From: Sediminibacterium soli | Lineage (GTDB): Bacteria > Bacteroidota > Bacteroidia > Chitinophagales > Chitinophagaceae | Direction of reading: 5' to 3' | DNA length: 64,000 bases | Assembly: GCF_009939225.1 (NCBI RefSeq) | Contig: NZ_JAACJR010000010.1 | Location: 62,001-126,000 of the forward strand | Shown here: positions 25,203 to 61,004 of the stretch, one piece after another | How positions within the stretch are numbered: the stretch's first letter is position 1 | How the letters are laid out: every line of letters starts with the position of its first letter | Made by a program: the position numbers and the translations under genes | The notes under the pieces: generated by a model | Told to the model about the DNA's origin: nothing | Databases searched by the model: none | The model's input: only the letters and a program-made list of their open reading frames with translations

Positions 25203-25225
25203 GTTCTACATCAAGTAAAAACGAT

Positions 25226-27247: not shown

Positions 27248-27700
27248 ATGCCTGTCATGTTTGCAAAACGATATTTCGAAGAATTTGAATCCCGCGAAAC
27301 CCGGCATACCCGGGGACGAACCATCACCGAAGCGGATATTGTGATCCATGCCGGACAATCCGGCGATTTTTTCCCGCATCACATGGATGAAGCCTGGTGC
27401 CGTACCCAGCCTTTTCAGAAAAGAATCGCGCACGGTACCCTGATCTTTACCGTAGCCATCGGTCTTACCGCCGATATGGTGAACGAAGTTTCCATGACCT
27501 ATGGATACGACCGGCTGCGGTTTATCAAACCGGTGTTCATAGGAGATACACTGACGGTAACAGTAACGGTAACGGATAAAAAAGACCATAAAAAACCCGG
27601 CTACGGACTGGTGACCGAACTGGTGGAATGTTTTAACCAGGAAAGGGAATTGGTCATGGTCTGTGAACACATATTGCTGGTGAACAAGAAGAACGTGTAA
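27248..27700 (+). CDS. MaoC family (R)-hydratase/dehydratase
   Basis: A 150-residue hot-dog-fold protein. The hydratase-2 motif is intact: [13 protein letters not shown] with Asp40 and His45 in the positions of the catalytic pair of (R)-specific enoyl-CoA hydratase PhaJ (SGDFNPLH), then RIAHGTLIF and [14 protein letters not shown]. Such enzymes add or remove water at the C2-C3 bond of acyl-CoA thioesters in the cytosol. It opens a long operon: the next gene starts 2 nt after its stop, and two CoA-transferases follow, which supports a CoA-thioester substrate. The PhaJ Asn in this loop is Phe here, pointing to an unusual acyl group. The start could also be the Met at 27257. Confidence 0.88.
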
Positions 27701-27702
27701 GC

Positions 27703-28866
27703 ATGGAAGCAGTCTTAAACGGTATAACATGGGGGCACAGCAGGGGCTTTACGCCATTGCTGGCGGCTTCGCAGCGATACGAAGAACTGCATCCGGGCAT
27801 ACGCGTGCAGTGGAAAAAAAGAACACTGCAGGAGTTTGCCGATGTTTCTATTAACGGGCTGGCCAAAACCTACGATCTGTTGATCATCGATCACCCGTCG
27901 GCAGGTCTTGCCGCGGCCACGGGCTGCCTATTGCCGCTTAATGAATACCTTACGCCTGCCTACCTGCAGGACCAGCTAACTCATTCGGTTGGTAACTCAC
28001 ACCTCAGTTACCAGTACGACCAGGTGCAATGGGCACTGGCCATAGATGCAGCCACCCCGGCCGCGAGTTTTCGCGAAGATCTTTTACTGCATCATAAAGA
28101 ACAGGTACCCCGTACATGGGAAGAGGTATTGGCACTGGCGCGAAAAGGATTGGTGGCCGTGCCCGCCATCCCCATCGACCTGCTGATGAATTTCTATAGT
28201 TTCTGCATCGCCTGTGGCGCCACGCCTTTTACCGGTGCAGACGAAGTAATCGATAAAACAACAGGCATACAGGCGATCGAGACCATGCGGCAGCTATATG
28301 CATTGGTTGACCGGGACATGTTTCATTGCAACCCCATTGCGGTGGCGGAACTCATGTCGGCAACAGACCGCTATGCGTATTGTCCCTTTGCATATGGGTA
28401 TTCCAACTACAGCAGAACAGGCTTTGCCCGCCACCTGCTGCGGTATACCGCTGTGGTGAAACTGAACGGCAGGGCCCTGCGTACGACCATCGGCGGCGCG
28501 GGACTGGCGGTTTCGGCCCATTGCGCCAGCAAAAAAGCGGCGGTGGATTTTGTCGCCTGGCTGGTATCGGGTCCGGTACAGAAAACCCTGTACCTGGAGC
28601 ATGGCGGACAGCCCGGGCATCGCTCGGCATGGACGGATGCGGGTGCCAACCGGCTTACCCACGATTATTTCACCAACGTGTTACCGGTTATGGATAACGG
28701 GTATACAAGACCGCGGTATGACGGCTATCTTTATTTCCAGGATCATGCCGGCACACCGCTGCGCAAATGCCTGATGGACGACGGCGATGCACAGACGGCG
28801 CTGGATGCGATGAACGAACTGTACCGGGAAAGCCTGGTGCGCAAACAATCAATCACCACTGTATGA
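27703..28866 (+). CDS. ABC-type solute-binding protein family 1 homologue lacking a signal peptide
   Basis: A 387-residue protein with the fold pattern of carbohydrate ABC solute-binding proteins: an opening strand GITWGHSRGFTPLLAA, YEELHPGIRVQW, a FAD...YDLLIIDHPS strand, LLPLNEYL, EQVPRTWEEVLALARKG, the hinge-region LRTTIGGAGLAVSAH, KAAVDFVAWLVSGPVQK and GGQPGHRSAW. It starts 2 nt after the MaoC stop, directly at the first strand of the mature domain, so there is no room for an export signal. No ABC permease or ATPase is encoded nearby. It ends in a 4-nt ATGA overlap with a CaiB gene. I infer a cytosolic ligand-binding role tied to the CoA enzymes; the actual function is unknown. Confidence 0.8.
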   Translation: MEAVLNGITWGHSRGFTPLLAASQRYEELHPGIRVQWKKRTLQEFADVSINGLAKTYDLLIIDHPSAGLAAATGCLLPLNEYLTPAYLQDQLTHSVGNSHLSYQYDQVQWALAIDAATPAASFREDLLLHHKEQVPRTWEEVLALARKGLVAVPAIPIDLLMNFYSFCIACGATPFTGADEVIDKTTGIQAIETMRQLYALVDRDMFHCNPIAVAELMSATDRYAYCPFAYGYSNYSRTGFARHLLRYTAVVKLNGRALRTTIGGAGLAVSAHCASKKAAVDFVAWLVSGPVQKTLYLEHGGQPGHRSAWTDAGANRLTHDYFTNVLPVMDNGYTRPRYDGYLYFQDHAGTPLRKCLMDDGDAQTALDAMNELYRESLVRKQSITTV

Positions 28867-30002
28867 CAGATTTGCCATTGGAAGGAATTGTTGTGCTGGA
28901 ATTCTGCCAGTATTTGTCGGGCCCCTCGGCGGCCCTGCGGCTGGCCGATCTCGGCGCAAGGGTGATCAAAATAGAAAAACCCGGTGTAGGCGATGCCGGC
29001 CGCAAACTGGCGATCAAAAACCTCTGGGTGGATGATGACAGCCTGTTATACCATACCATCAACCGCAATAAGGAAAGCTTCGCCGCCGATCTTAAGAACG
29101 CCGGCGATCTCGGATACATCAAGCAGCTGATCGGCAAAGCCGATGTGCTGATACATAATTTCCGACCGGGCGTAATGGACCGGGCAGGACTGGGATACGC
29201 AGCGGTACAGGCGATCAACCCGCGGATCATTTATGCCGAGATATCGGGTTACGGCAAAGAAGGTCCGTGGAAAGATCTGCCGGGGCAGGATCTTTTGCTG
29301 CAGTCCATCACCGGGTTGGCGTATACTACCGGTAACGGCAGCAGCGCCCCCGTGCCTTTTGGCATTGCCATCGGCGATATCCTTGCCGGCAGCCAGCTGG
29401 TACAGGGTATTCTCGCCGCGCTGATACGCCGTCAGAAAACAAAGACAGGTGCGCTGATCGAAATCAGCCTGATGGAATCCCTGCTCGATTTCCAGTTCGA
29501 ACTGCTTACCACTTATTTCGCCAACGGTCAGCAGCCGCAACGAAGCGATATCAACAACGGGCATCCACTGCTCAACGCGCCCTATGGGCTCTACCAGACA
29601 AAAAACGGTCATATTGCACTGGCCATGATGGAAATACCGGCACTGGCTGCAGCCATCGATTGTCCCGCATTGCAGGATGCTTCAAAAGAATACGCTTTTT
29701 CGGAACGCGACCGCGTTAAGCAGGTATTGGCCGATCACCTGGTAAAACAATCATCGGCTTACTGGATAGAAAGATTACACGAGAACGGCTTATGGGCGAT
29801 GGAAGTGCTGGACTGGGAAAACATGATGACACAGGAAGCCTACCGCAGCCTGCAGATGGAACAGGCACTGACCATCCCCGGCGGTAAGATCGTTACCACG
29901 CGGTGCCCGATACGGTTAAATGGCAAAAGACTGTTCTCCGACAGACCGGCACCGGCATTGGGTAATGCAAACAAAACCCTGCTGGCGGAACTGAATAAAT
30001 AA
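28863..30002 (+). CDS. CaiB/BaiF class III CoA-transferase, copy 1
   Basis: A 379-residue cytosolic transferase that moves CoA between carboxylic acids through an aspartyl intermediate. It opens with the family start LEGIVVLEFCQYLSGPSA, LADLGARVIKIEKPG and NRNKESFAADLK. The catalytic Asp is predicted as Asp143 in LPGQDLLLQSITGLA, and VLIHNFRPGVMDRAGLG and EISGYGKEGPW are further signatures. It overlaps the solute-binding-protein gene by 4 nt and is followed 8 nt later by a paralogue, so the two may form a heteromeric enzyme like BbsEF or SmtAB. The ATG at 28863 is the family start; the frame is open further upstream without family similarity. The acid substrate is unknown. Confidence 0.92.
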   Translation: MTDLPLEGIVVLEFCQYLSGPSAALRLADLGARVIKIEKPGVGDAGRKLAIKNLWVDDDSLLYHTINRNKESFAADLKNAGDLGYIKQLIGKADVLIHNFRPGVMDRAGLGYAAVQAINPRIIYAEISGYGKEGPWKDLPGQDLLLQSITGLAYTTGNGSSAPVPFGIAIGDILAGSQLVQGILAALIRRQKTKTGALIEISLMESLLDFQFELLTTYFANGQQPQRSDINNGHPLLNAPYGLYQTKNGHIALAMMEIPALAAAIDCPALQDASKEYAFSERDRVKQVLADHLVKQSSAYWIERLHENGLWAMEVLDWENMMTQEAYRSLQMEQALTIPGGKIVTTRCPIRLNGKRLFSDRPAPALGNANKTLLAELNK

Positions 30003-30010
30003 AACTGCGA

Positions 30011-31183: not shown

Positions 31184-31193
31184 CGATTGAGCC

Positions 31194-32072
31194 ATGAAAC
31201 GCATTGTTGATACGCACCTGCATATCTGGGATCTCGGTAAAGCCGATTATCCCTGGCTGGCGGGCGACAACTCCCTGCTCAACCGCAGCTGGCTGCTCGA
31301 TGAAATGGAACCGGAGCGGGCACAGGCAGGCGTTACCGCCGGCGTGCTGGTGCAGGCAGCCGGTAACCTGGAAGATACCAGGCTGATGTTTGAAACCGCT
31401 GCGCACACGCCATGGATTGCGGGTGTGGTTGCCTGGCTTCCGCTCATGGATACCGTGGCAACGCAGAACCTGCTCGAAAACCTTCACCTGAAAGAAAAGA
31501 TCTGCAAAGGCATCCGCCACCAGACCCACGATGAACCCGATCCGCAATGGCTGCTGCAGCCCGCGGTACTGGAAAGCCTTAAACTGGTGGCTGCCGCAGG
31601 GTTAACATACGATGCAGTGGGTATACTGCCCGCCCATATCGATACTGTTCGGCAACTGGCGGAAAAACTGCCGGAACTCAACATCGTCTTCGATCACCTG
31701 AACTGGCCGCCGATACCCGCCACGAACGGGTTGGGACAATGGGGCCGGCTGATGGCGGCGGCAGCACAGCAGCCGAATATTTTTGCGAAGATATCCGGAC
31801 TGGGAACCGCTTCGGGCAATTTTGCAGAACGCACCGCAGAGGATATCAAACCCGCTGTGGCATTTGCACTGGAGCATTTCGGAACGGATCGCTGTTTCTG
31901 CGGCAGCGACTGGCCGGTATCCATGCTGGCCGGCAGCTACAGCCATACCTGGGAAACCCTATCGGCCATCCTTTCGGATCTGCTGAGCGAAGCGGAACAG
32001 CAACAGGTGCTGTTTACCAATGCAGACAATTTTTACCAATTAGGACTCAATCAACCGCATGGAAGCAATTAA
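31194..32072 (+). CDS. Amidohydrolase-2 family protein, probable sugar-lactone hydrolase
   Basis: A 292-residue TIM-barrel metal hydrolase of the group that contains L-fucono-1,5-lactonase and L-rhamnono-lactonase (COG3618-like). The HxH pair is in DTHLHIWDL with the family tail YPWL, a barrel His is in IVFDHLNWPP, and the catalytic Asp is in CFCGSDWPVS. KGIRHQTHDEPDPQWLL is a signature of this lactonase branch. It would open a deoxyaldonolactone produced by a sugar 1-dehydrogenase. Its 3' end overlaps rhaT by 14 nt. No signal peptide, so it is cytosolic. Confidence 0.88.
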   Translation: MKRIVDTHLHIWDLGKADYPWLAGDNSLLNRSWLLDEMEPERAQAGVTAGVLVQAAGNLEDTRLMFETAAHTPWIAGVVAWLPLMDTVATQNLLENLHLKEKICKGIRHQTHDEPDPQWLLQPAVLESLKLVAAAGLTYDAVGILPAHIDTVRQLAEKLPELNIVFDHLNWPPIPATNGLGQWGRLMAAAAQQPNIFAKISGLGTASGNFAERTAEDIKPAVAFALEHFGTDRCFCGSDWPVSMLAGSYSHTWETLSAILSDLLSEAEQQQVLFTNADNFYQLGLNQPHGSN

Positions 32073-33096
32073 CGGTATCCTGTATCATGCAGTGGGTGCG
32101 TCGGGTGCGGCGCTTTGCTACACGCCGGGTAAAGGTGTGAAAAGCTGGAGCTGGCAAACCTACTGGTTGCTGCAGGCAGCCGTTTGCTGGCTGGCATTAC
32201 CTGTGCTGGTGGCACTGATCACCATACCCGAACTCCGGCTGGTACTGCAGGAAGCGCCCACCGACATCATGCAGAAAGTATTTCTACTGGGAATGGCATA
32301 CGGCATCGGCGGAACCGCTTTTGGGATAGCTATCAGGTACCTCGGTTTTTCACTTACCTACGCCATCGCTGTGGGCATCAGCTGCGTGCTGGGCACTTTG
32401 TTGCCACCGCTGGTACACGGCACGCTTACCGAAGTAATGCAATCCAGCGGCGCGGGTTTCCTCATGGGAGGCGTAGCAATGGGCGCCGCAGGTATCGCCC
32501 TTTGCGGTGTGGCGGGAAGGAACAAGGAGAAAGATATGATGGCCGGCGAAAAAGACAGGGGCCGGTTCTCGCTGCGGAAAGGATTGCCGCTATGCCTGCT
32601 GGCGGGCATATTGTCTGCACTATACGGGTTTGCACTCGACCATGGCCAGCCCATTGCCGATGTGGCGGCGCAGCACGGCGCGGGCAATTTCCAGGGTAAT
32701 GTGATCTATATTTTTGCCAATACCGGTGCCTTTGTTTCTACGGCATGCTACTGCCTGTACCTGCACGTAAAAGAGAAAACTTTCAGGGAATTTGGCAACG
32801 CGGGCAATGACAGTCTTCTGCAGAATTATTTGCTGTCGGCACTGACCGGCGTGCTGTGGTACGGCCAGTTTTTCTTTTACGGACTTGGCCATGTGCGGAT
32901 GGGGCGCTATCGTTTCAGCAGCTGGGCCATACATATGATCATGCTGGTGCTTTTCAGCACCGTAGCAGGCATTATCATGAAAGAATGGAAACAGTGCAGC
33001 GTAAAAACAAAACGATGGCTGGCGCTGGCACTGCTCGCGCTGGTAACCGCTATATTACTTCTGACCTATGGCAATTATCTTGGTGAAAATAAATGA
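32059..33096 (+). CDS. rhaT: L-rhamnose/H+ symporter RhaT family
   Basis: A 345-residue membrane protein with about ten transmembrane helices, matching RhaT. The N-terminal VGASGAALCYTPGKGVKSWSWQTYW and the repeated Gly/Ala-rich helices (GMAYGIGGTAFGIAIRYLG, FLMGGVAMGAAGIAL) are typical, as is the C-terminal GRYRFSSWAIHMIMLVLFSTVAGI. It would import L-rhamnose or a related deoxysugar released by the GH78 and GH95 enzymes encoded downstream. It overlaps the lactonase gene by 14 nt and the dehydrogenase gene by 4 nt (ATGA), so it is embedded in one operon. Confidence 0.9.
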   Translation: MEAINGILYHAVGASGAALCYTPGKGVKSWSWQTYWLLQAAVCWLALPVLVALITIPELRLVLQEAPTDIMQKVFLLGMAYGIGGTAFGIAIRYLGFSLTYAIAVGISCVLGTLLPPLVHGTLTEVMQSSGAGFLMGGVAMGAAGIALCGVAGRNKEKDMMAGEKDRGRFSLRKGLPLCLLAGILSALYGFALDHGQPIADVAAQHGAGNFQGNVIYIFANTGAFVSTACYCLYLHVKEKTFREFGNAGNDSLLQNYLLSALTGVLWYGQFFFYGLGHVRMGRYRFSSWAIHMIMLVLFSTVAGIIMKEWKQCSVKTKRWLALALLALVTAILLLTYGNYLGENK

Positions 33097-34181
33097 TGCA
33101 TACTGTGACCGTTGACCATATACTGCCCCGCGAAAAAAGACCCGTATTTATCATAGGGGCGGGTGGTATCGTCAATACCGCACACCTGCCTGCGTACCGT
33201 ATTGCCGGGTTTGATGTGCAGGGTATATACGATATCACACCGGGCAGAGCGCAGGACACGGCCCACCGGTTTTCGATACCGCATGTATTTGAAACACTGC
33301 AGGCGATGATCACCCATGCGCCCGCAAATGCGGTGTTTGACGTGGCGGTACCGGGCTCGCAAACAATACCTGTGCTGGAACAGCTGCCGGAGGGGGCCGC
33401 CGTGTTATTGCAGAAGCCGATGGGCGAGAACCTGTCCGAAGCAAAAAAAATTCACCGGCTGGTAAAAGAGAAAAACATGCTGGCCGCCATCAATTTCCAG
33501 TTGCGGTATGCACCTTATATACTCGCTGTAAAAAAACTGCTGCGCGAAGACCTGCTGGGCGAACTGAACGATATTGAAGTGAACGTTAATGTGTACACGC
33601 CCTGGGATATGTGGGACTTTCTGGCCGCATCGCCGCGTGTGGAAATATTGTACCACAGCATTCATTATATAGACCTCGTGCGCAACATGCTGGGTAATCC
33701 GCAGGCTGTATACGCGCGTACCACCGGGCATCCTTTCATGAAAAACATGGCCTCGGTGCGCAGTAATATCATCATGAACTACGGCGAAATGGTACGTGCA
33801 AATATTCTTACCAACCATTGCCACCGCTACGGTTTGCCCAAACAGCAGTCTTATATCAAATTTGAAGGAAGCAGGGGCGCCGTCATGATCAATTTCGGGG
33901 CACTGATCAATTATCCGCGCGGGGCGGCAGACAGCTTCGAATACATCCTGCTCAGTCCGGAAGCAGAACCCGAGTGGAAAACATTGCCGATAGAAGGCAG
34001 CTGGTTTCCACATGCATTCATCGGCAGCATGGCAGAACTGATGCTGGCCGCAGAAGGCAGCATAGCAGCGCCCGATAACAGCGCAGACGATTGTATCTAT
34101 ACCATGGCCTGCGTGGAAGCCGCTTACCAAAGCAGCAACAACGGCGGTACCCCTTTGGCAGATTTTATTGAAAACCCATAA
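33093..34181 (+). CDS. Gfo/Idh/MocA family NAD(P)-dependent oxidoreductase
   Basis: A 362-residue cytosolic sugar dehydrogenase. The Rossmann motif is VFIIGAGGIVNTAHLPA (residues about 18-34), and the catalytic Lys is in LLQKPMGEN, where the usual Glu of the EKP motif is Gln. HSIHYIDLVRN carries the conserved His/Asp of the second domain. The family oxidises or epimerises sugars and inositols. In this operon, between rhaT and secreted glycosidases and close to a lactonase, it could oxidise the imported sugar at C1 to its lactone; this is inferred from position. It begins in a 4-nt overlap with rhaT. There is no export signal. Confidence 0.88.
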   Translation: MMHTVTVDHILPREKRPVFIIGAGGIVNTAHLPAYRIAGFDVQGIYDITPGRAQDTAHRFSIPHVFETLQAMITHAPANAVFDVAVPGSQTIPVLEQLPEGAAVLLQKPMGENLSEAKKIHRLVKEKNMLAAINFQLRYAPYILAVKKLLREDLLGELNDIEVNVNVYTPWDMWDFLAASPRVEILYHSIHYIDLVRNMLGNPQAVYARTTGHPFMKNMASVRSNIIMNYGEMVRANILTNHCHRYGLPKQQSYIKFEGSRGAVMINFGALINYPRGAADSFEYILLSPEAEPEWKTLPIEGSWFPHAFIGSMAELMLAAEGSIAAPDNSADDCIYTMACVEAAYQSSNNGGTPLADFIENP

Positions 34182-34190
34182 GTCAGGTCA

Positions 34191-36947
34191 GTGTTGAAGC
34201 AGTATCTTACAAATAGTATCCTTGTTTTCAGCCTGTTCATTGCAGGCACGGCCTATGCGCAGCGCCCGGTGCGGGTACGCAATGCCTCGCCTTCGCCACG
34301 AACAGTATTTGCCGTGCAGAAACTGTTTGCTGCATTGCAGGCAAACGGTTACCGCAACGCGGAAACTCACCCTGTTGCCGGCATGCCGGCAACAACCATC
34401 ATCGTCGGCAAAAAAAACGATACGGCGGTAAGCAACGCGGCAGGAGCCTTGGGTCTTACCATCCCCGAACTGCGTAAGGAAGGTTTTTTTATTCACGCCG
34501 AAAAAAATACCGTGCTGGTAGCCGGTGCCGACGAGTCGGGCGTGTTGTACGGCTGTCTTGAACTGGCAGAAGCGATCGGGGCGCAGCATCGCATTCCGCT
34601 GAACATGCATACCAGCGATGCGCCCGAAATGGTGCTGCGCGGCACCTGCATCGGCCTGCAGAAACCGTATTACCTGCCGGGAAGAACGGTGTATGAATAT
34701 CCCTATACGCCGGAAACTTTTCCCTGGTTCTACAACAGGCAGCACTGGTTGCAGGTGCTGGACTCGATGCTCGCCAACCGCATGAACTCACTGTACCTGT
34801 GGAATGGCCATCCGTTTGCTTCGCTGGTAAAACTAAAGGAATATCCCTATGCGGTGGAAGTGGATGACAGCACCTTCAAACGCAACGAAGACATGTACCG
34901 GTTCATTACCGCCGAAGCGGACAAGCGTGGTATCTGGGTCATACAGATGTTCTACAACATCATCGTGTCCAAACCTTTTGCCGAATACCATCATATCAAA
35001 ACTCAGGACAGGGAACGTCCCATCATTCCGCTGATCGCAGACTATACACGCAAATCAATTGCCGCGTTTGTTGAGAAATACCCCAACACAGGCCTGATGG
35101 TCTGCCTGGGCGAAGCCATGGAGGGCGTTGGCAAAGACGATATCGAATGGTTCACCAAAACCATTATCCCCGGCGTACAGGACGGACTTAAAGCGCTTGG
35201 CAAAAAAGAAGAGCCGCCGATCGTTTTACGTGCCCACGATACTGATGCTCCTGCTGTAATGAAAGCCGCATTGCCGCTGTACAGCAACTTATATACCGAG
35301 GCCAAATTCAACGGCGAGGCGCTGACTACACCCCGTCCGCGCGGCGCCTGGGCAGCATTGCACCAAACACTCAGTCGCCTGGGCAGCGTACAGATAGAGA
35401 ATGTGCACATACTCGCCAACCTGGAACCTTTCCGCTACGGATCGCCGGATTTTATCCGCCAGTCCGTAACGGGTATGCACGAGGTAATGGGCGGCAACGG
35501 GCTGCATCTGTACCCGCAGGCATCGTACTGGGACTGGCCCTATACGGCAGACAGTGTGAAAGGCAAACGCCTGTGGCAGATTGAACGCGACTGGATCTGG
35601 TACGGCGCCTGGAGCCGCTATGCCTGGAAGGCAAAACGCGACAGTCTCGGGGAAAATGCCTACTGGAGCAAGAAACTGGCGGCAAGGTTCGGATGCAGCG
35701 AACGCGAAGGAAAAAACATACTCGCGGCCTATGAACAGTCTGGTGAGATAGCGCCGAAACTGCTCAGGCGCTTTGGCATCACAGACGGCAACCGGCAAAC
35801 CCTTACACTGGGTATGCTGATGACCCAACTGATCAACCCTTACCGGTACGGTCTGTTCACCCTGCTGTACGAGAGCGAAAGTCCCGAAGGGGAAATGCTT
35901 ACCGACTATGCCGAAAAAGAATGGAAGAAACAACCGCATAACGGCGAAACGCCAGCGCGGGTGATCCATGAAGTGAAACAACATGCCGACAAAGCAGTGG
36001 CGGCGATAGAACGCGCGGCGACAGGGATAACCGCCGGCAAAGCGGAATTTGGAAGATTGAAAAACGATATGTACTGTTACCGTGCGCTGGCCTATCATTA
36101 TGCTTTCAAGGCCGAAGCGGCGTTGCATGTGCTGCGGTATAAATATTCAGCCGATGTGAAAGACCTGGAAGCAGCGATGCCCCTGCTGGAACAAAGTGTG
36201 CGCGAATACCGGTTGCTTGCCCGTCTTACAAAAGACAGCTACCGTTACGCCAACAGCATGCAGACGCAGCAGCGGAAGATACCCATTCGCGGATCCAACG
36301 GAACGTTCAAGCACTGGACTGAAGTGCTGGTGCCGATGGAAGAGGAACTGCGGCATTTCAGGCATAAGATCGATTCGCTCAAAAACGATCGCAGCGATGA
36401 AACTGCGCGAAAGGTGCGGTTCAGGGAAGCGGCCATTAGCCTCGGAAAAACAACTGCTGAATGGTATACGCTCGACAGTGCTGCGCCATGCACGCTGGAC
36501 AGGGATTACCATATCCGCAATCTTGTCCCTGAGCTGAAAGGACTGCAGGCATTGCGGTTGTCGTTCAGGGAACAGTTACAATCGGGTACAGAACTCAGGT
36601 TTTCTGCCAGGGAGCCGGTGAAAATACTGGTGGGTTATTTCAACCCGAAAAGAGCGGCATTTGCAAAAGATACCGTGTACCTTAAACCGCCCGAACTCGA
36701 AACCAATGCCGGCGCCAACAATTACGGGCAGGCCGAAGTGAAGATTGCTAACGCCTTGGTGATACCGGGACTGCCACCGGTGAACGTTCACAGCTACAGT
36801 TTTCCGGCAGGCGACCAGGTGCTGAAACTGCCGAAGGGATTCTGTATCGTACTGGGCGTTGTTGCAGAAAGCCAGCCGATCGTTCCTTATGATGCAGGTT
36901 TAACGGAGAGCGGTATCAAACGCGAGATCGACTGGTTATTTGAATAA
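34191..36947 (+). CDS. Secreted alpha-glucuronidase-like glycoside hydrolase (GH67/GH115-like layout)
   Basis: A 918-residue secreted protein. The start is non-ATG: GTG at 34191 or TTG at 34194; both give the signal peptide KQYLTNSILVFSLFIAGTAYAQ. Residues about 25-140 form a GH20/GH67-type alpha-beta N-domain (GFFIHAEKNTVLVAGADESGVLYGCLELAEAI). Residues about 145-480 form a TIM barrel (ANRMNSLYLWNGHPFASL, GIWVIQMFYN, LMVCLGEAMEG with an acidic residue, IVLRAHDTDAP). Residues 490-760 form a helical region, and the end is beta-rich. The order matches alpha-glucuronidase-type enzymes, so removal of a uronic acid is plausible, but I cannot assign a CAZy family. It is followed 4 nt later by GH95. 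Confidence 0.65.
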   Translation: MLKQYLTNSILVFSLFIAGTAYAQRPVRVRNASPSPRTVFAVQKLFAALQANGYRNAETHPVAGMPATTIIVGKKNDTAVSNAAGALGLTIPELRKEGFFIHAEKNTVLVAGADESGVLYGCLELAEAIGAQHRIPLNMHTSDAPEMVLRGTCIGLQKPYYLPGRTVYEYPYTPETFPWFYNRQHWLQVLDSMLANRMNSLYLWNGHPFASLVKLKEYPYAVEVDDSTFKRNEDMYRFITAEADKRGIWVIQMFYNIIVSKPFAEYHHIKTQDRERPIIPLIADYTRKSIAAFVEKYPNTGLMVCLGEAMEGVGKDDIEWFTKTIIPGVQDGLKALGKKEEPPIVLRAHDTDAPAVMKAALPLYSNLYTEAKFNGEALTTPRPRGAWAALHQTLSRLGSVQIENVHILANLEPFRYGSPDFIRQSVTGMHEVMGGNGLHLYPQASYWDWPYTADSVKGKRLWQIERDWIWYGAWSRYAWKAKRDSLGENAYWSKKLAARFGCSEREGKNILAAYEQSGEIAPKLLRRFGITDGNRQTLTLGMLMTQLINPYRYGLFTLLYESESPEGEMLTDYAEKEWKKQPHNGETPARVIHEVKQHADKAVAAIERAATGITAGKAEFGRLKNDMYCYRALAYHYAFKAEAALHVLRYKYSADVKDLEAAMPLLEQSVREYRLLARLTKDSYRYANSMQTQQRKIPIRGSNGTFKHWTEVLVPMEEELRHFRHKIDSLKNDRSDETARKVRFREAAISLGKTTAEWYTLDSAAPCTLDRDYHIRNLVPELKGLQALRLSFREQLQSGTELRFSAREPVKILVGYFNPKRAAFAKDTVYLKPPELETNAGANNYGQAEVKIANALVIPGLPPVNVHSYSFPAGDQVLKLPKGFCIVLGVVAESQPIVPYDAGLTESGIKREIDWLFE

Positions 36948-36951
36948 CAAG

Positions 36952-39780
36952 ATGAAGAAACCTCAGATAATATACCTGTTGCTGCTGCTCATGCAGTTGC
37001 TGTACAGCCGGCTGCCCGCACAGGAACTGAAACTATGGTACCAGCGTCCCGCAGCAACCTGGACCGAGGCATTGCCCATAGGCAACGGCCGTATAGGCGC
37101 TATGTTATTCGGCGGCGTGCAGGAGGATCGCATACAGTTCAACGAAGAAACACTGTGGACAGGCGCGCCACGTTCTCATAGCAGACCTGGCGCCTGGAAA
37201 TACCTCGATACCATCCGCCATTTGTTGTTCGCGGGCGACCAGCGCTCCGCGGAGGCATTGGCGGAGAAAAATTTTATGGGCCTAAAAAGCAGTGAAGGGA
37301 AAAAAGAAGCCTGGACCCGGGACATGCTGTCGCTGAAAGGCCTGCACGGAGACCCATCCGCCGCGCATTTTGACGACGGGCAGTGGAAAACCATGCAGGT
37401 GCCTGCCTACGATGGCTGGGAGAGTGTGGGTTTTGAAGGTCTCGACGGCGCGGTTTGGCTGCGGACCTATTTTGAACTGCCGGCATCATGGCTGGGTAAA
37501 GACCTGGTGCTCGACCTGAACCGCATCCGCGATTACGACCGCAGTTATGTGAACGGCAAACCGGTGGGGGAACAGGAAAACAACGAAGCAAGAAAATACC
37601 GCATACCCGCAGGCCAACTGCATGCCGGTCGCAACAGCATTGCCATACAGGTACTGAACTATTCCGATAAAGGAGGTATTACCGGGTATAAAGACACAAC
37701 AAGGCATATCGGTGTTTATCCCTTTGGCAGCGAACAGGAAAAGCTATCACTCAACGGTGCGTGGAAATACCTGGTGCAGGATGATGAATCTCCGCCTACA
37801 GCCGTTTACCAGGCCAGCTACCAGCCTTTTGGCGACCTGCTGCTGCGTTTTCAGCACACAGGTGCCGTTACCCGTTACAGGCGTGAACTGGATCTGCATA
37901 CGGCGATTGCCAGCACGGCCTACACGGCAGACGGTGTAGATTTCACGCGCAGCTACCTGGTGAGCCAGCCCAGCCAGACGCTCGCCGTTAACCTGTCGGC
38001 CTCCCGCAAAAACAGCATCAGCTTCGAAGCGGAGCTGAACAGTCCGCATAAAAACTTCCGTGTCACAAAAACCGGCGACAATACCATCGCACTTTCAGTG
38101 CAGGTGAGGAATGGCGCGCTGCGGGGCGAAAGCTACCTGCTTATCCGGCTCAGGGGCGGCAGTCTTTCTGTGGCCGGTAACAGGCTGGTCGTGCGCGGGG
38201 CCGATGAGGCAACACTGTATTTGACGGCTGCAACCAACTACCAGAATTTCCAGTCTGTAAAAGCCGATCCTGCCGCAGCCTGCAGGCAGGCGTTGCAAAA
38301 CCTGTCAGGAAAAACATACGAAAGCATCAGGGCCGCGCATATTGCCGAGTACAGAAAATATTTCAACACGTTTTCACTTGATCTCGGAAAAAGCGGCTAT
38401 GAGCAGCTGCCCACCGACCAGCGTCTTGCGCAGTTTGCGGGCACCGGCGATCCCTCTTTTGTTGCCTTGTACCTGCAGTACGGGCGATACCTGCTGATCG
38501 CTTCTTCAAGACCCGGAACCCGTCCTGCCAACCTGCAGGGTATCTGGAATGAATTGCTTACGCCGCCCTGGGGCAGCAAGTATACCACCAATATCAACCT
38601 CGAGATGAATTACTGGCCCGCAGAGCCGCTCAATCTTTCACCCATGCACGAGCCGCTGTTTCAGATGATCGGAGAACTTGCGGCCACCGGAAAACAGACA
38701 GCCCTCGATCATTACAACGCCCCGGGATGGGTGCTGCACCATAACACCGATCTCTGGAGGGGAACGGCGCCGATCAATGCGGCCAACCACGGTATATGGG
38801 TTACCGGCGGAGCATGGCTCTGTCAGCACCTGTGGGAACATTACCTGTATACCCAGGACCGGCAATTTCTGCGGAACAAAGCGTACCCGCTGATGCGTGA
38901 CTGTGCGCGGTTCTTTAACGCATTCCTGGTAAAAGATCCGGCAACGGGATGGCTGATCAGCACACCTTCTAATTCGCCGGAGCAGGGAGGACTTGTGGCA
39001 GGCCCTGCGATGGACCACCAGATCATACGCGCGCTGTTTGGAAATGTGATTGCCGCGGGCAGCATACTCAACAGTGATGCGGTTTTTCGCGATACGCTGC
39101 AGAAAAATCTGGCGCAGCTGGCACCCGACCAGGTGGGCCGCTACGGCCAGTTGCAGGAATGGCTGCGCGATGTGGACGACACCACCAACAAGCACCGGCA
39201 TATATCGCATCTCTGGGCCGTGTACCCAGGTAAGGAAATCAACTGGGACGAGACACCGCAACTCATGAACGCCGCCCGCCGGTCTTTACGCTACCGCGGC
39301 GATGCCGCCACCGGTTGGAGTCTTGGCTGGAAGATCAACTGCTGGGCGCGTTTTAAAGACGGCGATCACGCCTTCCGCATGATACAGATGCTTATAAGCC
39401 CCGCCAAAGGAGGCGCCGGCAGTTACCCCAACCTGTTTGATGCACACCCGCCGTTCCAGATCGACGGCAATTTTGGCGGCGCCGCAGGTATCGGCGAACT
39501 GCTTGTGCAGAGCCATACAAAATACATTGACCTGCTGCCCGCGCTGCCGGAGGCGCTGCCCTATGGTAAACTGAAAGGTATCTGCGCGCGCGGCGGATTC
39601 GTGATCGATATGGATTGGGATAAGAACAAGCTGCAGAAGATAACCGTTACCTCACTGGCAGGACAGCCGCTATTGCTGCGCTACCGCGATAAAGTGACAG
39701 AGATCGCTACCGTAAAAAACGGTCGCTACCAATTCAACGCATTGCTTGAACCGGTAAAACAAATAACTGCTGACAATTAG
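36952..39780 (+). CDS. Secreted GH95 enzyme (alpha-L-fucosidase/alpha-L-galactosidase family) with inserted jelly-roll domain
   Basis: A 942-residue secreted enzyme with signal peptide ending RLPAQ and the GH95 opening LWYQRPAATWTEALPIGNGRIGAMLFGG. The (alpha/alpha)6 part carries the catalytic Asn region NINLEMNYWPAEPLNL and the catalytic Asp region PFQIDGNFGGAAGIGELL. Residues about 130-265 (LHGDPSAAHFDDGQWKTMQV, WLRTYFELPASWLGKDLVL, YVNGKPVGEQ) read as a GH2-type sugar-binding jelly roll inserted into the N-terminal beta-domain, longer than a basic GH95. It would remove L-fucose or L-galactose. The ATG at 36952 is better than a TTG at 36940. It sits 4 nt after the previous gene. Confidence 0.9.
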   Translation: MKKPQIIYLLLLLMQLLYSRLPAQELKLWYQRPAATWTEALPIGNGRIGAMLFGGVQEDRIQFNEETLWTGAPRSHSRPGAWKYLDTIRHLLFAGDQRSAEALAEKNFMGLKSSEGKKEAWTRDMLSLKGLHGDPSAAHFDDGQWKTMQVPAYDGWESVGFEGLDGAVWLRTYFELPASWLGKDLVLDLNRIRDYDRSYVNGKPVGEQENNEARKYRIPAGQLHAGRNSIAIQVLNYSDKGGITGYKDTTRHIGVYPFGSEQEKLSLNGAWKYLVQDDESPPTAVYQASYQPFGDLLLRFQHTGAVTRYRRELDLHTAIASTAYTADGVDFTRSYLVSQPSQTLAVNLSASRKNSISFEAELNSPHKNFRVTKTGDNTIALSVQVRNGALRGESYLLIRLRGGSLSVAGNRLVVRGADEATLYLTAATNYQNFQSVKADPAAACRQALQNLSGKTYESIRAAHIAEYRKYFNTFSLDLGKSGYEQLPTDQRLAQFAGTGDPSFVALYLQYGRYLLIASSRPGTRPANLQGIWNELLTPPWGSKYTTNINLEMNYWPAEPLNLSPMHEPLFQMIGELAATGKQTALDHYNAPGWVLHHNTDLWRGTAPINAANHGIWVTGGAWLCQHLWEHYLYTQDRQFLRNKAYPLMRDCARFFNAFLVKDPATGWLISTPSNSPEQGGLVAGPAMDHQIIRALFGNVIAAGSILNSDAVFRDTLQKNLAQLAPDQVGRYGQLQEWLRDVDDTTNKHRHISHLWAVYPGKEINWDETPQLMNAARRSLRYRGDAATGWSLGWKINCWARFKDGDHAFRMIQMLISPAKGGAGSYPNLFDAHPPFQIDGNFGGAAGIGELLVQSHTKYIDLLPALPEALPYGKLKGICARGGFVIDMDWDKNKLQKITVTSLAGQPLLLRYRDKVTEIATVKNGRYQFNALLEPVKQITADN

Positions 39781-39792
39781 CAGCATACCATT

Positions 39793-42531
39793 ATGAAAAA
39801 ATACGGCAGTTATATCGCAATCCTTTGCCTGTTTACCCAGGTAGCCGCGCAGGAAGGATTGTCTGTTGACAACCTCCGCTGCGAATACCGTAAAAACCCG
39901 GTAGGGGTAGAGCTGAGCGCACCGGCGCTGAGTTGGGAGTTGCTGTCTTCTATGCGCAATACCCGCCAGGCTGCTTACCGAATACAAGTGGCGGAAGATT
40001 CCCTGTCATTGACAAAGGGAGAGGCCGGCAGCTGGGATACACAAAAACAAACAGGCAATACCTCGCTGCAGGTAGGGTACGGCGGAAAAAAACTGGTGCC
40101 CGCAAAAAAATATTTCTGGAGAGTGATGGTATGGGACAACAGGGGCCGCCATTCTGCCTGGAGCAAACCGGCTGCCTGGCAGATGGGATTGCCGCAGCGC
40201 AGCGACTGGCGCCATGCGCAATGGATCGCATACGACATCATTGCCGATACAGCCATCATTGCGCCGCATATACACCTCAACGGTAAAAAATCGTGGGGGG
40301 GCAGACGTAACACACTTCCGATGTTCCGTAAAACCTTTGCAGTGGAGAAAAGACTGAAAAGAGCCACGGCATTTATCTGCGGACTCGGGCATTTTGAACT
40401 GTATGTGAATGGCCGTAAAACAGGTGATCATTTTCTTGACCCCGGCTGGACCAATTACGCCAAACATGCGCAGTATGTTGGGTTTGATATCACCGACCAG
40501 GTAAAAAAAGGCAGTAACGCCATCGGCGTAATGCTGGGCAATGGGTTTTATTATATTCCCGGCCAGCGGTACAGGAAAATGACGGGCGCTTACGGGCTTC
40601 CCAAAATGATACTGCGCACGGTCATTGAATACGAAGACGGTTCTGCGGAAGACATCGTATCGGATCAAAGCTGGCAAACAGCGCCTTCACCCATTATTTT
40701 TTCCAGTATCTACGGAGGAGAGGATTACGACGCCACGCTTGAGCAGCAAGGATGGAATACGGCAGCCTTCTCTGCGCAAGCGTGGAAACCCGCTGTCGTT
40801 ACCAGTGGCCCGCCGGTGCTGGAAGCGCAGATGGCCGAACCGGTGAAACTGCTGCAACATTTTTTGCCGGTACAGCAAAAATCACTGGACAGCCACACTT
40901 CGGTATACGATCTTGGGCAGAATTTTTCCGGTATTCCGCGCATTACGGTCAGCGGCCGCCGCGGAGACACGGTGCGCATACGCCCGGCAGAACTGCTTAC
41001 CGCCGATGGCAGGGCCAACCAGAAAGCCACGGGGTCCCCGTCTTATTATACCTATGTGTTAAAAGGCGACGGCGCAGAGCAATGGCAGCCGCGTTTCAGT
41101 TATTACGGTTTCCGTTACCTGCAGGCAGAATGCATTGCAGCAGACAGCAACGGACAATTACCAAAACTGCTTGCGCTGGAAGGATGGCATATGCGTAACG
41201 CCGCAGATTCGGTTAGTTCGTTTTCCTGTTCCAGTGAACTGTTTAACAGAACGCATTCACTGATCAACTGGGCCATCAAAAGCAATATGGTAAGCGTGTT
41301 CACTGATTGTCCGCACCGCGAAAAACTGGGCTGGCTCGAGGAAACGCATCTTATGGGCGCTTCGGTGCAGTACAATTACGATATCGCCGCACTTTGCCGG
41401 AAAGTGATCCGGGATATGATGCAGGCACAATACCCCAACGGGAAGATCCCCGAAATAGCGCCGGAGTTTACCGTGTTCACACCACCCTTTGACGAATCAC
41501 CCGAATGGGGCAGCGCGGCGATTATTCTGCCCTGGTATTACTACCAATGGTACGGCGATCGCCGCATACTGGCCGAAGCCTACGATATGATGAAGCGCTA
41601 CCTCGGTTACCTGCAGGGCAGATCAAGTGAGCATATTGTTTCGCATGGACTGGGCGACTGGTTCGATATCGGTCCCAAACCCTCGGGATTTTCACAAATG
41701 ACCAGGATGGGGATCACTGCCACCGCCATGTATTATTATGATATCACCATCCTCGCAAAAGTGGCGGGGCTGCTTCGCAAGGATGCCGACGCTGCGGCGT
41801 ACAACCGGCTGGCAGGCGAGGTACGACAGGCATTCAACAAAACATTTTTCGACCCGGTAAAACAACAATACGATTCTGCGAGCCAGACGGCCAATGCCAT
41901 GGCGCTTTTTATGGAACTGGCAGAACCGCAGCAAAGAGACCAGGCGGTGAAAGCCCTGGTACGGGATATCCGCAGCCGCAACAACGCGCTCACCGCCGGT
42001 GATGTGGGGTATCGCTATGTATTGAAAGCGCTGGAAGCAGCAGGAAAGAACGATGTGGTTTTTGATATGAACAGCCGGTACGATGTGCCCGGCTATGGCT
42101 TCCAGTTGCAGCACGGCGCCACCGCGCTCACCGAAAGCTGGCAGGCATATGAATCCGTATCCAATAACCATTTTATGCTTGGGCACCTGATGGAGTGGCT
42201 GTATGCAGCCGTTGCAGGCATACGGCAGGCGCCGCAATCTGCGGGCTGGAAACAAATAGAGATACGACCCGAAGCAGTGGGCGATCTGCAGTTTGCCACG
42301 GCAACATTTCATTCGCCTTACGGGTTGATCGGAAGCGCATGGAAAAAAACGGCAGACGGCTTTGCGCTGCAGGTTACCATACCTGCCAATACCACCGCAG
42401 CGGTATACCTGCCGGCAAATAAAAATTCGGTGATAAAGGAAGGCGCTGTCAGCAGGCGTTTTCGCTATACCAACGGCAGGGCCCTGGTAACAATAGGATC
42501 GGGGACCTATCATTTTACAGTAAACAACTAA
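39793..42531 (+). CDS. Secreted alpha-L-rhamnosidase, GH78
   Basis: A 912-residue secreted enzyme removing alpha-L-rhamnose from pectic or glycosidic substrates. The signal peptide is short (ends FTQVAAQ). The N-terminal fibronectin-like domain has LRCEYRKNPVGVE and PALSWELLS, followed by jelly-roll modules (YVNGRKTGDHFLDPGWTNY). The catalytic (alpha/alpha)6 barrel holds VFTDCPHREKLGWLEETHL with the acidic catalytic residues, then FDESPEWGSAAIILPWYYYQ and HGLGDWFDIGP. The C-terminal beta-domain is complete. Its product, L-rhamnose, matches the RhaT gene upstream in the same operon. Confidence 0.94.
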   Translation: MKKYGSYIAILCLFTQVAAQEGLSVDNLRCEYRKNPVGVELSAPALSWELLSSMRNTRQAAYRIQVAEDSLSLTKGEAGSWDTQKQTGNTSLQVGYGGKKLVPAKKYFWRVMVWDNRGRHSAWSKPAAWQMGLPQRSDWRHAQWIAYDIIADTAIIAPHIHLNGKKSWGGRRNTLPMFRKTFAVEKRLKRATAFICGLGHFELYVNGRKTGDHFLDPGWTNYAKHAQYVGFDITDQVKKGSNAIGVMLGNGFYYIPGQRYRKMTGAYGLPKMILRTVIEYEDGSAEDIVSDQSWQTAPSPIIFSSIYGGEDYDATLEQQGWNTAAFSAQAWKPAVVTSGPPVLEAQMAEPVKLLQHFLPVQQKSLDSHTSVYDLGQNFSGIPRITVSGRRGDTVRIRPAELLTADGRANQKATGSPSYYTYVLKGDGAEQWQPRFSYYGFRYLQAECIAADSNGQLPKLLALEGWHMRNAADSVSSFSCSSELFNRTHSLINWAIKSNMVSVFTDCPHREKLGWLEETHLMGASVQYNYDIAALCRKVIRDMMQAQYPNGKIPEIAPEFTVFTPPFDESPEWGSAAIILPWYYYQWYGDRRILAEAYDMMKRYLGYLQGRSSEHIVSHGLGDWFDIGPKPSGFSQMTRMGITATAMYYYDITILAKVAGLLRKDADAAAYNRLAGEVRQAFNKTFFDPVKQQYDSASQTANAMALFMELAEPQQRDQAVKALVRDIRSRNNALTAGDVGYRYVLKALEAAGKNDVVFDMNSRYDVPGYGFQLQHGATALTESWQAYESVSNNHFMLGHLMEWLYAAVAGIRQAPQSAGWKQIEIRPEAVGDLQFATATFHSPYGLIGSAWKKTADGFALQVTIPANTTAAVYLPANKNSVIKEGAVSRRFRYTNGRALVTIGSGTYHFTVNN

Positions 42532-42535
42532 CGGC

Positions 42536-43552
42536 ATGAAAGCATGGATATGTGAACAGCCTGGTGTATTCAGGTACGACGTAAAGGAAATACCCATGGC
42601 GCAAAAGGGAAACGCCCTTCTCAGGATCAGGCGCATCGGTATCTGCGGTACAGACCTGCATGCATTTGAAGGCACACAGCCTTTTTTTTCTTACCCGAGA
42701 ATACTCGGCCACGAACTGGCAGCCGAGATAGCGGCGATTGACGGCGGCGGAACATTTGCGGTTGGCGACAGGGTTACCTTCATCCCGTATTTTCATTGCG
42801 GTCATTGCATTGCCTGCCGCAACGGGCTTACCAATTGCTGTACCGATATCAAAGTATTCGGTGTGCATATCGACGGGGGTATGCAGGAATTTGTTTCGGT
42901 GCCGGTGCAGTATCTGGTGCAGGGCGGTGACATGGCATTTGATGAACTGGCGCTTGTGGAGCCGCTGGCCATCGGCGCACATGGTATCCGCAGGGCCGGC
43001 GTAAAAGCAGGCGAACTGGTGGCGGTGATAGGCGCCGGGCCCATCGGTCTGGGCGTAATGGAGTTTGCACGCATCTCGGGCGCACAGGTGATCGCCATCG
43101 ATGTAAACGAGAGACGGCTGCAGTTCTGCAGGGAGCGGTTGCAGGTGGTGCATACCATCAATCCATCGGCAACCGATACGCTCGAAGCCTTGCAGACAAT
43201 CACCGGCGGCGATATGCCCGCAGTGGTGATCGATGCCACGGGCAACCTGAATGCCATCAACCAGGGCTTTCGCTACCTGGCGCATGGCGGGCGGTATGTG
43301 CTGGTGGGACTGCAGAAAGCGGAGATAGCGTTCAGTCACCCCGAATTCCATAAACGCGAGGCAACCCTGATGAGCAGCCGCAATGCAACACGCGAGGATT
43401 TCGATCATGTGCTGGCCTGTATGCGTAACAGGCAGATCGATCCGGCCACTTATATTACGCACTGTGTGCAGTTCAGCGAGATCGGCAGCCGGTTTGAAAG
43501 CTGGCTGAACCCCGCCTCGGGTGTGATCAAGGCCATGGCACTGATCGATTAA
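42536..43552 (+). CDS. Zinc-dependent alcohol dehydrogenase (MDR family), sugar/sugar-acid oxidising type
   Basis: A 338-residue cytosolic medium-chain dehydrogenase. Catalytic zinc ligands are Cys37 (GICGTDLH) and His59-Glu60 (ILGHE); the structural zinc site is HCGHCIACRNGLTNC (Cys88, 91, 94 and 101 or 102). The NAD motif is VIGAGPIGLGVMEFA. It resembles the branch with L-galactonate/L-fuconate-type and threonine-type dehydrogenases. Together with the lactonase and Gfo/Idh protein it supplies a second redox step for sugar catabolism. It starts 4 nt after the GH78 stop, so a cytosolic enzyme is placed between two secreted glycosidases. Confidence 0.9.
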   Translation: MKAWICEQPGVFRYDVKEIPMAQKGNALLRIRRIGICGTDLHAFEGTQPFFSYPRILGHELAAEIAAIDGGGTFAVGDRVTFIPYFHCGHCIACRNGLTNCCTDIKVFGVHIDGGMQEFVSVPVQYLVQGGDMAFDELALVEPLAIGAHGIRRAGVKAGELVAVIGAGPIGLGVMEFARISGAQVIAIDVNERRLQFCRERLQVVHTINPSATDTLEALQTITGGDMPAVVIDATGNLNAINQGFRYLAHGGRYVLVGLQKAEIAFSHPEFHKREATLMSSRNATREDFDHVLACMRNRQIDPATYITHCVQFSEIGSRFESWLNPASGVIKAMALID

Positions 43553-43564
43553 TTTTTCGATGAT

Positions 43565-46082: not shown

Positions 46083-46142
46083 GCGTGATCATCGATATTC
46101 CTATGGGAACAGATGAATCATCTCCGATCAAAACGCAATTCG

Positions 46143-46892: not shown

Positions 46893-46914
46893 CTGTTTTT
46901 TAAACTACACACAT

Positions 46915-50088: not shown

Positions 50089-50106
50089 TTCTAAAGTCAA
50101 TCAACA

Positions 50107-51969: not shown

Positions 51970-52001
51970 AGCAAACCGTATATCGTAAAACAGAAGTAAT
52001 C

Positions 52002-53645: not shown

Positions 53646-53666
53646 CAACTATACCAACTGTTGTAC

Positions 53667-53684
53667 TTTTAATGATCATTAAAA
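53667..53684. repeat. 18-bp perfect palindrome upstream of the DUF6298-like gene
   Basis: The sequence ttttaatgatcattaaaa is its own reverse complement, centred on GATC, in the 54-nt gap between the pectate lyase stop and the GTG start at 53700. It could be an operator for an internal regulator or a weak transcript-end hairpin. Confidence 0.5.
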
Positions 53685-53699
53685 CCGGCACCCCTTGCT

Positions 53700-56819: not shown

Positions 56820-56868
56820 TTCAGTGTCAAACAGCGGAACAGCGCCGCACATAAAAAGAGAATACCGC

Positions 56869-58248: not shown

Positions 58249-58254
58249 CATCGA

Positions 58255-59169: not shown

Positions 59170-59170
59170 C

Positions 59171-61000: not shown

Positions 61001-61004
61001 CAGG

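Follow-up and report, generated by a model that had tools for sequence, protein, structure and literature searches.

A run of coenzyme A and sugar genes in Sediminibacterium soli

In a 64,000-nucleotide stretch of the Sediminibacterium soli genome (hereafter the window; positions 62001-126000 of contig 2 in a 3.88 Mb genome of 14 contigs), twelve plus-strand genes at 27248-45970 follow each other with overlaps of at most 14 bases or gaps of at most 12 bases (Table 1). The run opens with genes for a MaoC-type hydratase, a protein of the solute-binding fold (SBP1), two type III coenzyme A (CoA) transferases (CaiB1 and CaiB2), an amidohydrolase-type lactonase, a RhaT-family symporter and a Gfo/Idh/MocA dehydrogenase (Gfo), and continues into glycosidase genes. 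Its cytosolic half is best explained as a copy of a catabolic cassette that is widespread. We further propose that the cassette carries out a full CoA-dependent dehydration of aldonates by CaiB and MaoC, a tentative reading to which we give somewhat less than an even chance.

An initial annotation, made from the letters alone, had named most of these genes, and Pfam and NCBIfam scores confirmed all that it named, in order and on the plus strand; it had omitted the alpha-D-galacturonidase and the GH2 gene. It had listed the solute-binding protein without giving it a role, and SBP1 served here as the marker with which the cassette was found in other genomes. Gene coordinates are those of the first possible start codons, except for CaiB1, which was taken from an internal ATG at 28863; read from there, it shares 4 bases with the SBP1 stop.

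Table 1. Genes of the run and of the adjoining locus, in window coordinates, with profile scores (aa, amino acids; GH, glycoside hydrolase family)
Feature	Coordinates	Strand	Profile match or content
MaoC / PaaZ-hydratase-type, 150 aa, motif GDFFPHH, opens the run	27248..27700	+	Pfam PF01575 88.2 bits
SBP1, solute-binding-protein fold, 387 aa, starts MEAVLNGITWGHSRG	27703..28866	+	Pfam SBP_bac_1 45.4 bits
CaiB1, type III CoA-transferase, 379 aa	28863..30002	+	Pfam PF02515 (CoA_transf_3) 319.5 bits
CaiB2, type III CoA-transferase, 390 aa	30011..31183	+	Pfam PF02515 323.3 bits
Amidohydro_2 lactonase, L-fucono-1,5-lactonase-like	31194..32072	+	PF04909 127.5 bits
RhaT-family sugar/proton symporter homologue	32059..33096	+	PF06379 195.8 bits; NF010024 321.5 (cut-off 468)
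Gfo/Idh/MocA dehydrogenase	33093..34181	+	PF01408 50 bits; closest PDB chains ~44 bits
alpha-D-galacturonidase, rhamnogalacturonan II (RG-II) type	34191..36947	+	NF049878 1434.9 bits, over cut-off 1300
GH95 glycosidase	36940..39780	+	PF22124 581.6 bits
GH78 alpha-L-rhamnosidase	39793..42531	+	PF17389 322.9 bits
Zn-dependent dehydrogenase	42536..43552	+	PF00107 91.4 bits; NF007489 181.2 (cut-off 376)
GH2 beta-glycosidase, closes the tight run	43565..45970	+	PF02836 103.9 bits; NF041463 840.1 (cut-off 900)
Remaining pectin/RG-II-type locus	46113..62540	+	DUF3826, SusC-like (TonB-dependent receptor), SusD, PelZ-like, DUF6298
Further genes of the same locus	46113..62540	+	apiosidase (PF13204 369.5 bits), GH43, Beta-prop_BT_1020 (373.9 bits), MGH1-like GH

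Recurrence and variants of the cassette

Of 244 genomes from this family 42 carried SBP1, and in both the Gfo and the SBP1 trees the rows closest to the window came from Chitinophagaceae and other Bacteroidota. We compared the neighbourhoods of 96 loci, comprising the best 80 of at least 585 confirmed SBP1 relatives (at least 593 stretches matched) and 16 plasmid stretches hand-picked from 152 records, 14 alphaproteobacterial and 2 from Bacteroidota. Because these 80 have the highest scores, close relatives are over-represented (among them several Niastella, Lacibacter and Pedobacter). By their record titles the 80 include Bacteroidota of several families, Paenibacillus, Cohnella, Vibrio, Microbulbifer, a Sodalis, and metagenome-assembled genomes of a Mediterraneibacter, a Bryobacteraceae member and Chloroflexi. 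Neighbours were labelled with profile hidden Markov models built from annotated seeds, up to 9 kb from SBP1, and short contigs depress the counts. CaiB was found at 87 of the 96 loci (in at least two copies at 68), Gfo at 70, MaoC at 67, the lactonase at 43, RhaT at 38, a second solute-binding protein (SBP2) at 25, IclR at 25, a major facilitator superfamily (MFS) transporter at 19, L-rhamnose mutarotase at 12 and crotonase at 10; MaoC or crotonase accompanied CaiB at 72 of its 87 loci. The initial annotation had proposed looking for conserved linkage across Bacteroidota; MaoC, CaiB, lactonase, Gfo and a sugar transporter recur together beside sugar genes in several phyla. The Zn-dependent dehydrogenase was labelled at just four of the loci (L033, L095, L111 and L132), so we regard it as accessory and not as a constant member. 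Phage records gave no SBP1 match at E 1e-5.

In a PDB sequence search the closest solved chain to the window MaoC was 4ffu (170.5 bits; molecule name 'oxidase'), followed by 1q6w and, in third place, PaaZ, and among NCBIfam models it matched best that of the PaaZ C-terminal part (93.7 bits, cut-off 562.8). One Asp and one His were invariant in all 73 aligned MaoC rows and one Asp in all 156 aligned CaiB rows, the window included; from what is known of these families we take them to be the catalytic residues. These counts cover rows of MaoC and CaiB, not crotonase, that span at least 80% of the profile and lie within 14 kb of SBP1, and a second MaoC type, found at 11 loci, was left out of the 73. 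CaiB1 matched YfdE (4hl6) with 196.4 bits, with the Asp aligned.

Crotonase and an aldehyde dehydrogenase both lay within 9 kb of SBP1 at 8 loci. Seven loci (L087, L092, L093, L095, L097, L116 and L117) combine SBP1, two CaiB, crotonase and aldehyde dehydrogenase, with no Gfo, lactonase, SBP2 or MaoC inside that distance. The missing lactone genes fit this combination, because an aldehyde dehydrogenase yields the acid without a lactone, and a crotonase standing in for MaoC fits (de)hydration of a CoA thioester. In Lutibacter agarilyticus (L105, 1607-20883) both versions, crotonase with aldehyde dehydrogenase and Gfo with MaoC and SBP2, stand round a single SBP1-CaiB-CaiB set, and two RhaT homologues and a GH29 gene are also there. 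Since the acid-making enzymes and the hydratase vary, SBP1 with CaiB forms the most constant part of the cassette.

Other copies depart further. A distant version on a Sinorhizobium meliloti plasmid (L132:4679-15414), with an SBP1 33% identical, has genes for Gfo, a sugar isomerase, an aldose epimerase, a short-chain dehydrogenase/reductase (SDR), CaiB, the solute-binding protein, a crotonase and an ATP-binding cassette (ABC) transporter. Two loci (L064:2321-14166 and L063) have a GH29-type fucosidase, DUF5703 (a weak GH95 match) and a second MaoC between the CaiB pair and SBP1. At six loci from Bacteroidota and Paenibacillus (L080, L088, L089, L090, L099 and L101), genes for a RuBisCO-like protein, a DUF1537 kinase and an Asp/Glu racemase adjoin the cassette, at L090 and L099 downstream of the MFS gene and co-directional with it. 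Apiose, which such neighbours might suggest, was rejected as the general substrate, as they occur at only 6 of the 96 loci; among the papers listed on this point, none pointed to a link of that kind.

The intracellular binding proteins are the strangest part of the cassette and could be categorically new. Twelve codons before its ATG, the reading frame of the window SBP1 is closed. An ATG falls no more than about 10 residues from the conserved LKGITW motif in 84 of 95 full-length rows, and none does so in the remaining 11. Start position and upstream frame closure thus gave no export signal, no signal-peptide predictor having been run. In alphaproteobacterial records, the annotated SBP1 start overlaps the CaiB stop. 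The SBP1 alignment (55 rows) has 40 invariant columns, and the AlphaFold model (predicted local distance difference test score, pLDDT, 94.5) had MalE3 (6dtq) as its top Foldseek match, with a template-modelling (TM) score of 0.83. SBP2 shares this fold (pLDDT 93.8; TM 0.85 to 6dtq), and 23 of its 25 rows have an ATG directly ahead of the point where conservation begins. No ABC permease was seen beside SBP1 in the labelled Bacteroidota cassettes. Lacking a signal peptide, SBP1 is therefore unlikely to be a component of an importer, and transport-type sugar-binding proteins appear, judging from these sequences, to have shifted into the cytosol. A bolder proposal is that ABC sugar-binding proteins have turned into cytosolic enzymes, or enzyme subunits, in a sugar-acid pathway that depends on CoA, with SBP2 opening the lactone and SBP1 presenting or converting the acid for the paired CaiB; we regard this as rather doubtful.

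The lactonase and SBP2 never occurred at the same locus. Within 9 kb there was no case among the 96 loci, and the 70 Gfo loci divided into 38 with lactonase, 24 with SBP2 and 8 with neither. A 14 kb limit, applied to 95 of the loci plus the window (L134 dropped), gave lactonase in 46 and SBP2 in 25 of 96 rows, again never both. In the 22 genomes with SBP2-type cassettes no lactonase was found at the level of a cassette enzyme; 20 of them hold only a paralogue of 25-34% identity and at most 153 bits, and 2 nothing at E 1e-20, compared with matches of 303-353 bits in 7 of 7 lactonase-type control genomes. As the controls carry the weak paralogue too, a distant lactonase elsewhere in the SBP2 genomes is possible. 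Conversely, of 24 lactonase-type genomes, that of S. soli included, 23 gave nothing for SBP2 at E 1e-20 and the remaining one had a match of 28% and 95.6 bits; both positive controls of this search matched, one being the genome of the query itself.

At L048 and L051 the lactonase takes the place that SBP2 holds in Pedobacter-type loci, with CaiB2 on one side and, on the other, a Gfo from the SBP2-type clade. Both are apparent hybrids of an SBP1-CaiB-CaiB-lactonase block and an SBP2-type Gfo-MaoC-MFS block and, since they share this layout, may represent one event. On the Gfo tree the lactonase/SBP2 label changes at least 5 times, with 4 changes forced by supported branches. Against this, the SBP1 tree needs just 3 changes, and an independent-pairs sign test gave p 0.25-1, with 4 pairs on supported branches, too few for significance. 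As SBP2 never co-occurs with the lactonase, it may perform or bypass lactone opening; the case that it does this step or makes it needless is good but not decisive. The natural exchange of the two makes the function of SBP2 directly testable.

Proposed route, substrate and rival explanations

In the proposed route the symporter would import the free sugar, Gfo would oxidise it at C1 to the lactone, and the amidohydrolase (at other loci SBP2) would convert the lactone to the aldonate. CaiB1 and CaiB2, with SBP1 in the cytosol, would exchange CoA onto the aldonate carboxylate. MaoC (at other loci crotonase) would then eliminate the 3-hydroxyl as water to give the enol of the 2-keto-3-deoxyacyl-CoA, and CaiB would transfer the CoA to a fresh aldonate, the way CaiB and CaiD work in carnitine breakdown. 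All of the reactions, like the substrate and the part played by SBP1, are our inference. The idea that CaiB loads the aldonate and MaoC dehydrates it was already put forward in the initial annotation, and it gains from the retained residues and the carnitine precedent, by analogy with which the chemistry is read. What would be new is CoA-recycling dehydration, together with cytosolic binding proteins, within oxidative sugar catabolism; both parent principles are already known. Our literature search, with most subscription papers and all bioRxiv preprints outside its coverage, found no paper on an L-fucose or L-rhamnose pathway with a CoA-transferase and MaoC.

Within the window, the 38 open reading frames scanned with Pfam bore out the claim that dehydratases of the enolase or IlvD type, sugar kinases and isomerases are absent. 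Beyond it, no FucD homologue was found in the S. soli genome at E 1e-60; of its MR_MLE_C proteins, the two that exceeded the cut-off scored best as a cycloisomerase or an epimerase, all under the model cut-offs. Across the 96 loci, 78 had no match to dehydratase-type profiles (FucD, MR/MLE, IlvD, UxaA and UxuA-like) within the stretch covered at each locus.

A number of observations weigh against the route. Dehydratase-type profiles were matched at the other 18 of the 96 loci, and 5 of the 14 alphaproteobacterial stretches with the cassette carry an annotated L-fuconate dehydratase, most of these also with MR/MLE, SDR or FAH-type genes, that is, a CoA-free route. Among the family genomes, a FucD homologue was found in 9 of 42 SBP1-positive and 3 of 38 SBP1-negative ones, the latter taken in list order, not at random, from 202 unmatched genomes and with absence of SBP1 partly inferred from the match table; only two homologues reached 60% identity, both in SBP1-positive genomes. 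One IlvD-type sugar-acid dehydratase lies elsewhere in the S. soli genome, on contig 10, and might act here. In the run at 27248-45970 we found neither an aldolase nor a hydrolase that would process the 2-keto-3-deoxy product; an SDR for the keto-deoxy acid and an FAH-type hydrolase/aldolase, which some alphaproteobacterial versions have, were likewise absent. The window MaoC comes closest to the PaaZ hydratase domain, whose known reaction differs from the dehydration of an aldonyl-CoA. Finally, no CaiB match was found in the genomes, of unassessed completeness, of four loci whose SBP1 has no CaiB beside it (L071, L074, L075 and L076).

That the CaiB/MaoC pair replaces the dehydratase, as the initial annotation proposed, agrees with the absence of a FucD homologue in the host but cannot hold everywhere, because 5 of 14 alphaproteobacterial stretches carry an annotated L-fuconate dehydratase, and the genome statistics give no sign of replacement, because FucD is not rarer in SBP1-positive genomes. 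The same annotation had named a canonical L-rhamnonate/L-fuconate dehydratase and aldolase, co-regulated elsewhere in the genome, as a result that would tell against it; no L-fuconate dehydratase homologue was found, and the IlvD-type gene was. The latter, at contig 10:86000-101000 (L125), scored 858.1 bits against a cut-off of 882 with the L-arabinonate dehydratase model; its neighbours are GH3-like, xylosidase-like and arabinosidase-like genes and one for a GntP permease. From this content the region is probably a separate oxidative pentose locus.

The CaiB-less loci also weaken SBP1 as an obligate CaiB subunit. Seven such genomes were searched: CaiB was found elsewhere in those of L065 (62%) and L113 (58%), only as a partial match in that of L077 (36%), and not in the four named above, so the association of SBP1 with CaiB is not strict. 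L058 and L078 also lack CaiB at the locus and lay outside this search. In L071, L074, L076, L077 and L078, SBP1 adjoins an MR/MLE gene and an SSS-type transporter and, on the longer contigs, PhyH-like, UxuA-like and RraA-like genes too (families assigned by sight and with the profiles built here).

CaiB and MaoC might instead act on a modified sugar or a side branch, for example an O-methylated or acid-substituted fucose of RG-II, with MaoC hydrating an enol ether and the product joining the ordinary oxidative route. PaaZ hydrates the enol ether of oxepin-CoA, and the PaaZ matches of the window MaoC would suit such a reaction; RG-II contains odd sugars and the window holds an RG-II-type locus, and in some alphaproteobacterial versions a dehydratase route lies beside the cassette. 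We nevertheless consider this unlikely: the cassette also occurs with rhamnosidases and, at L098, beside a weak Agarase_CBM match (29.9 bits), settings in which RG-II sugars are unexpected, and no recurrent methyl- or ether-handling gene was seen in the labelled loci.

Somewhat less probable still is a route in which a normal dehydratase comes first and the CoA steps work on the 2-keto-3-deoxy acid or its cleavage products. Such an order would accommodate the dehydratase genes that adjoin the cassette in some alphaproteobacteria, as well as the RuBisCO-like, DUF1537 kinase and racemase genes at 6 of the 96 loci (Bacteroidota and Paenibacillus). It is opposed by the host genome, which has neither a FucD homologue nor an MR_MLE protein scoring as an aldonate dehydratase, and by the 78 loci free of dehydratase-type matches within the stretch covered. 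Dehydration by CaiB and MaoC remains our preferred reading.

The initial annotation had considered L-rhamnose as a substrate. The presence of GH78 in the run, the RhaT family of the transporter and the rhamnosidases flanking 11 of 14 MFS-type cassettes all point that way. The host, however, has a separate L-rhamnose operon on contig 13, in which no kinase was confirmed but which holds RhaEW (953.9 bits against a cut-off of 567.75), a homologue of L-rhamnose isomerase (512.1 bits, under its cut-off of 646.75) and a RhaT of 541.9 bits, over the cut-off that the window RhaT falls short of (321.5 of 468). The window RhaT is probably not an L-rhamnose symporter, and use of the cassette for L-rhamnose in this host is very improbable; given this operon we set L-rhamnose aside here and consider L-fucose or L-galactose likelier. 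None of the phosphorylative L-rhamnose isomerase, kinase and aldolase was found in the run at 27248-45970. RhaA (PF06134) and fucose isomerase (PF02952) were not found in the host genome, the control search for the latter being positive in E. coli and two others. As a correlate of the cassette, the lack of RhaA was dropped as uninformative, because few genomes of the family have RhaA at all (1 of 42 SBP1-positive and 0 of 38 SBP1-negative ones).

Glycosidases near the two transporter types differ. Of 95 rows, we compared the 47 with exactly one type, dropping 5 with both and 43 with neither. Fucosidase-type glycosidases (GH29, GH95 or DUF5703) were near 12 of 33 RhaT and 0 of 14 MFS loci, and rhamnosidases (GH78 or GH106) near 11 of 14 MFS and 1 of 33 RhaT loci (Fisher p 2e-7, uncorrected for kinship). 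RhaT-type copies, the window's among them, would accordingly handle L-fucose or L-galactose, and MFS-type copies L-rhamnose. The window, which was outside this count, does not follow the pattern cleanly: GH95 and GH78 both adjoin its RhaT, so the pattern picks no single sugar for it. For the cassette at large we infer L-galacto- or L-manno-type (6-deoxy)hexoses.

The surroundings bear on the source of the sugar. Because NF049878 is matched over its cut-off and apiosidase, BT_1020-like and SusD/TonB-dependent receptor genes are present, the locus resembles an RG-II locus; we take these glycosidase families to be of RG-II type, and GH95 to be the alpha-L-fucosidase/alpha-L-galactosidase family. 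The sole NCBIfam match of the lactonase was L-fucono-1,5-lactonase (NF052480, 154.8 bits, cut-off 400), and the window Gfo probably performs the step from sugar to lactone. L-fucose or L-galactose freed from RG-II is most likely the sugar of the window. Directly upstream of the operon, at 24776-26926, lies a GMC-type oxidoreductase gene (pyranose-oxidase model 64.9 bits, cut-off 544.9). The Bacteroidota promoter pattern matched once in the window against 1.33 expected, and not at the operon.

Chance assortment of unrelated genes, with which the differing gene order between phyla might agree, is refuted by the recurrence over 96 neighbourhoods in several phyla with catalytic residues kept, and its probability is negligible.

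If the proposed route is true, dehydration through a recycled CoA thioester would join the enolase-type and IlvD-type dehydratases as another means of removing water from sugar acids. It would operate in at least 585 genome stretches whose genes bear fatty-acid or 'extracellular solute-binding' names, and a transport fold would have been recruited into metabolism.

Comparison with known systems

The closest parallel is the carnitine breakdown of Escherichia coli, in which CaiB and CaiD dehydrate a 3-hydroxy acid and CoA is passed from product to substrate. It shares with the cassette a type III CoA-transferase and a hydratase, and some cassettes use a CaiD-like crotonase. The cassette differs in lying in a sugar operon with an aldonate that would come from Gfo and the lactonase, and in having MaoC in most copies, usually two CaiB, and cytosolic binding proteins. 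CaiB is placed among the class III CoA-transferases in PMC5592240. The same source pairs a class III succinyl-CoA:mesaconate CoA-transferase of Haloarcula with mesaconyl-CoA hydratase, an (R)-specific enoyl-CoA hydratase from the former MaoC family. This pair differs in its unsaturated dicarboxylic substrate, in working in the hydration direction and in lying outside sugar catabolism.

The oxidative L-fucose route opens with a dehydrogenase, a lactonase and L-fuconate dehydratase, according to PMC11378808. Non-phosphorylative oxidation of L-fucose and L-rhamnose comprises a mutarotase, dehydrogenase, lactonase, enolase-type dehydratase, SDR and FAH-type hydrolase. Many cassettes resemble it in having the lactonase and Gfo, and some alphaproteobacterial ones also have the mutarotase, SDR, FAH-type hydrolase and L-fuconate dehydratase; the cassette adds CaiB, SBP1 and MaoC, in a host without a FucD homologue.

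SBP1 and SBP2 have the fold of CUT1-type ABC sugar-binding proteins (MalE3, SmoF and the trehalose/maltose-binding protein), from which they differ in that no signal peptide was seen and in being sited among cytosolic enzymes. Cyclohexadienyl dehydratase and MqnA are solute-binding folds turned enzymes. They belong to other sub-families and have other substrates than SBP1 and SBP2, and would serve, by analogy, as a precedent for the fold as an enzyme. Likened by families and not gene by gene, the RG-II loci of Bacteroides thetaiotaomicron presumably share the alpha-D-galacturonidase, apiosidase, BT_1020-like, GH95 and GH78 genes with the window, which differs from them in carrying the CoA cassette in the same run.

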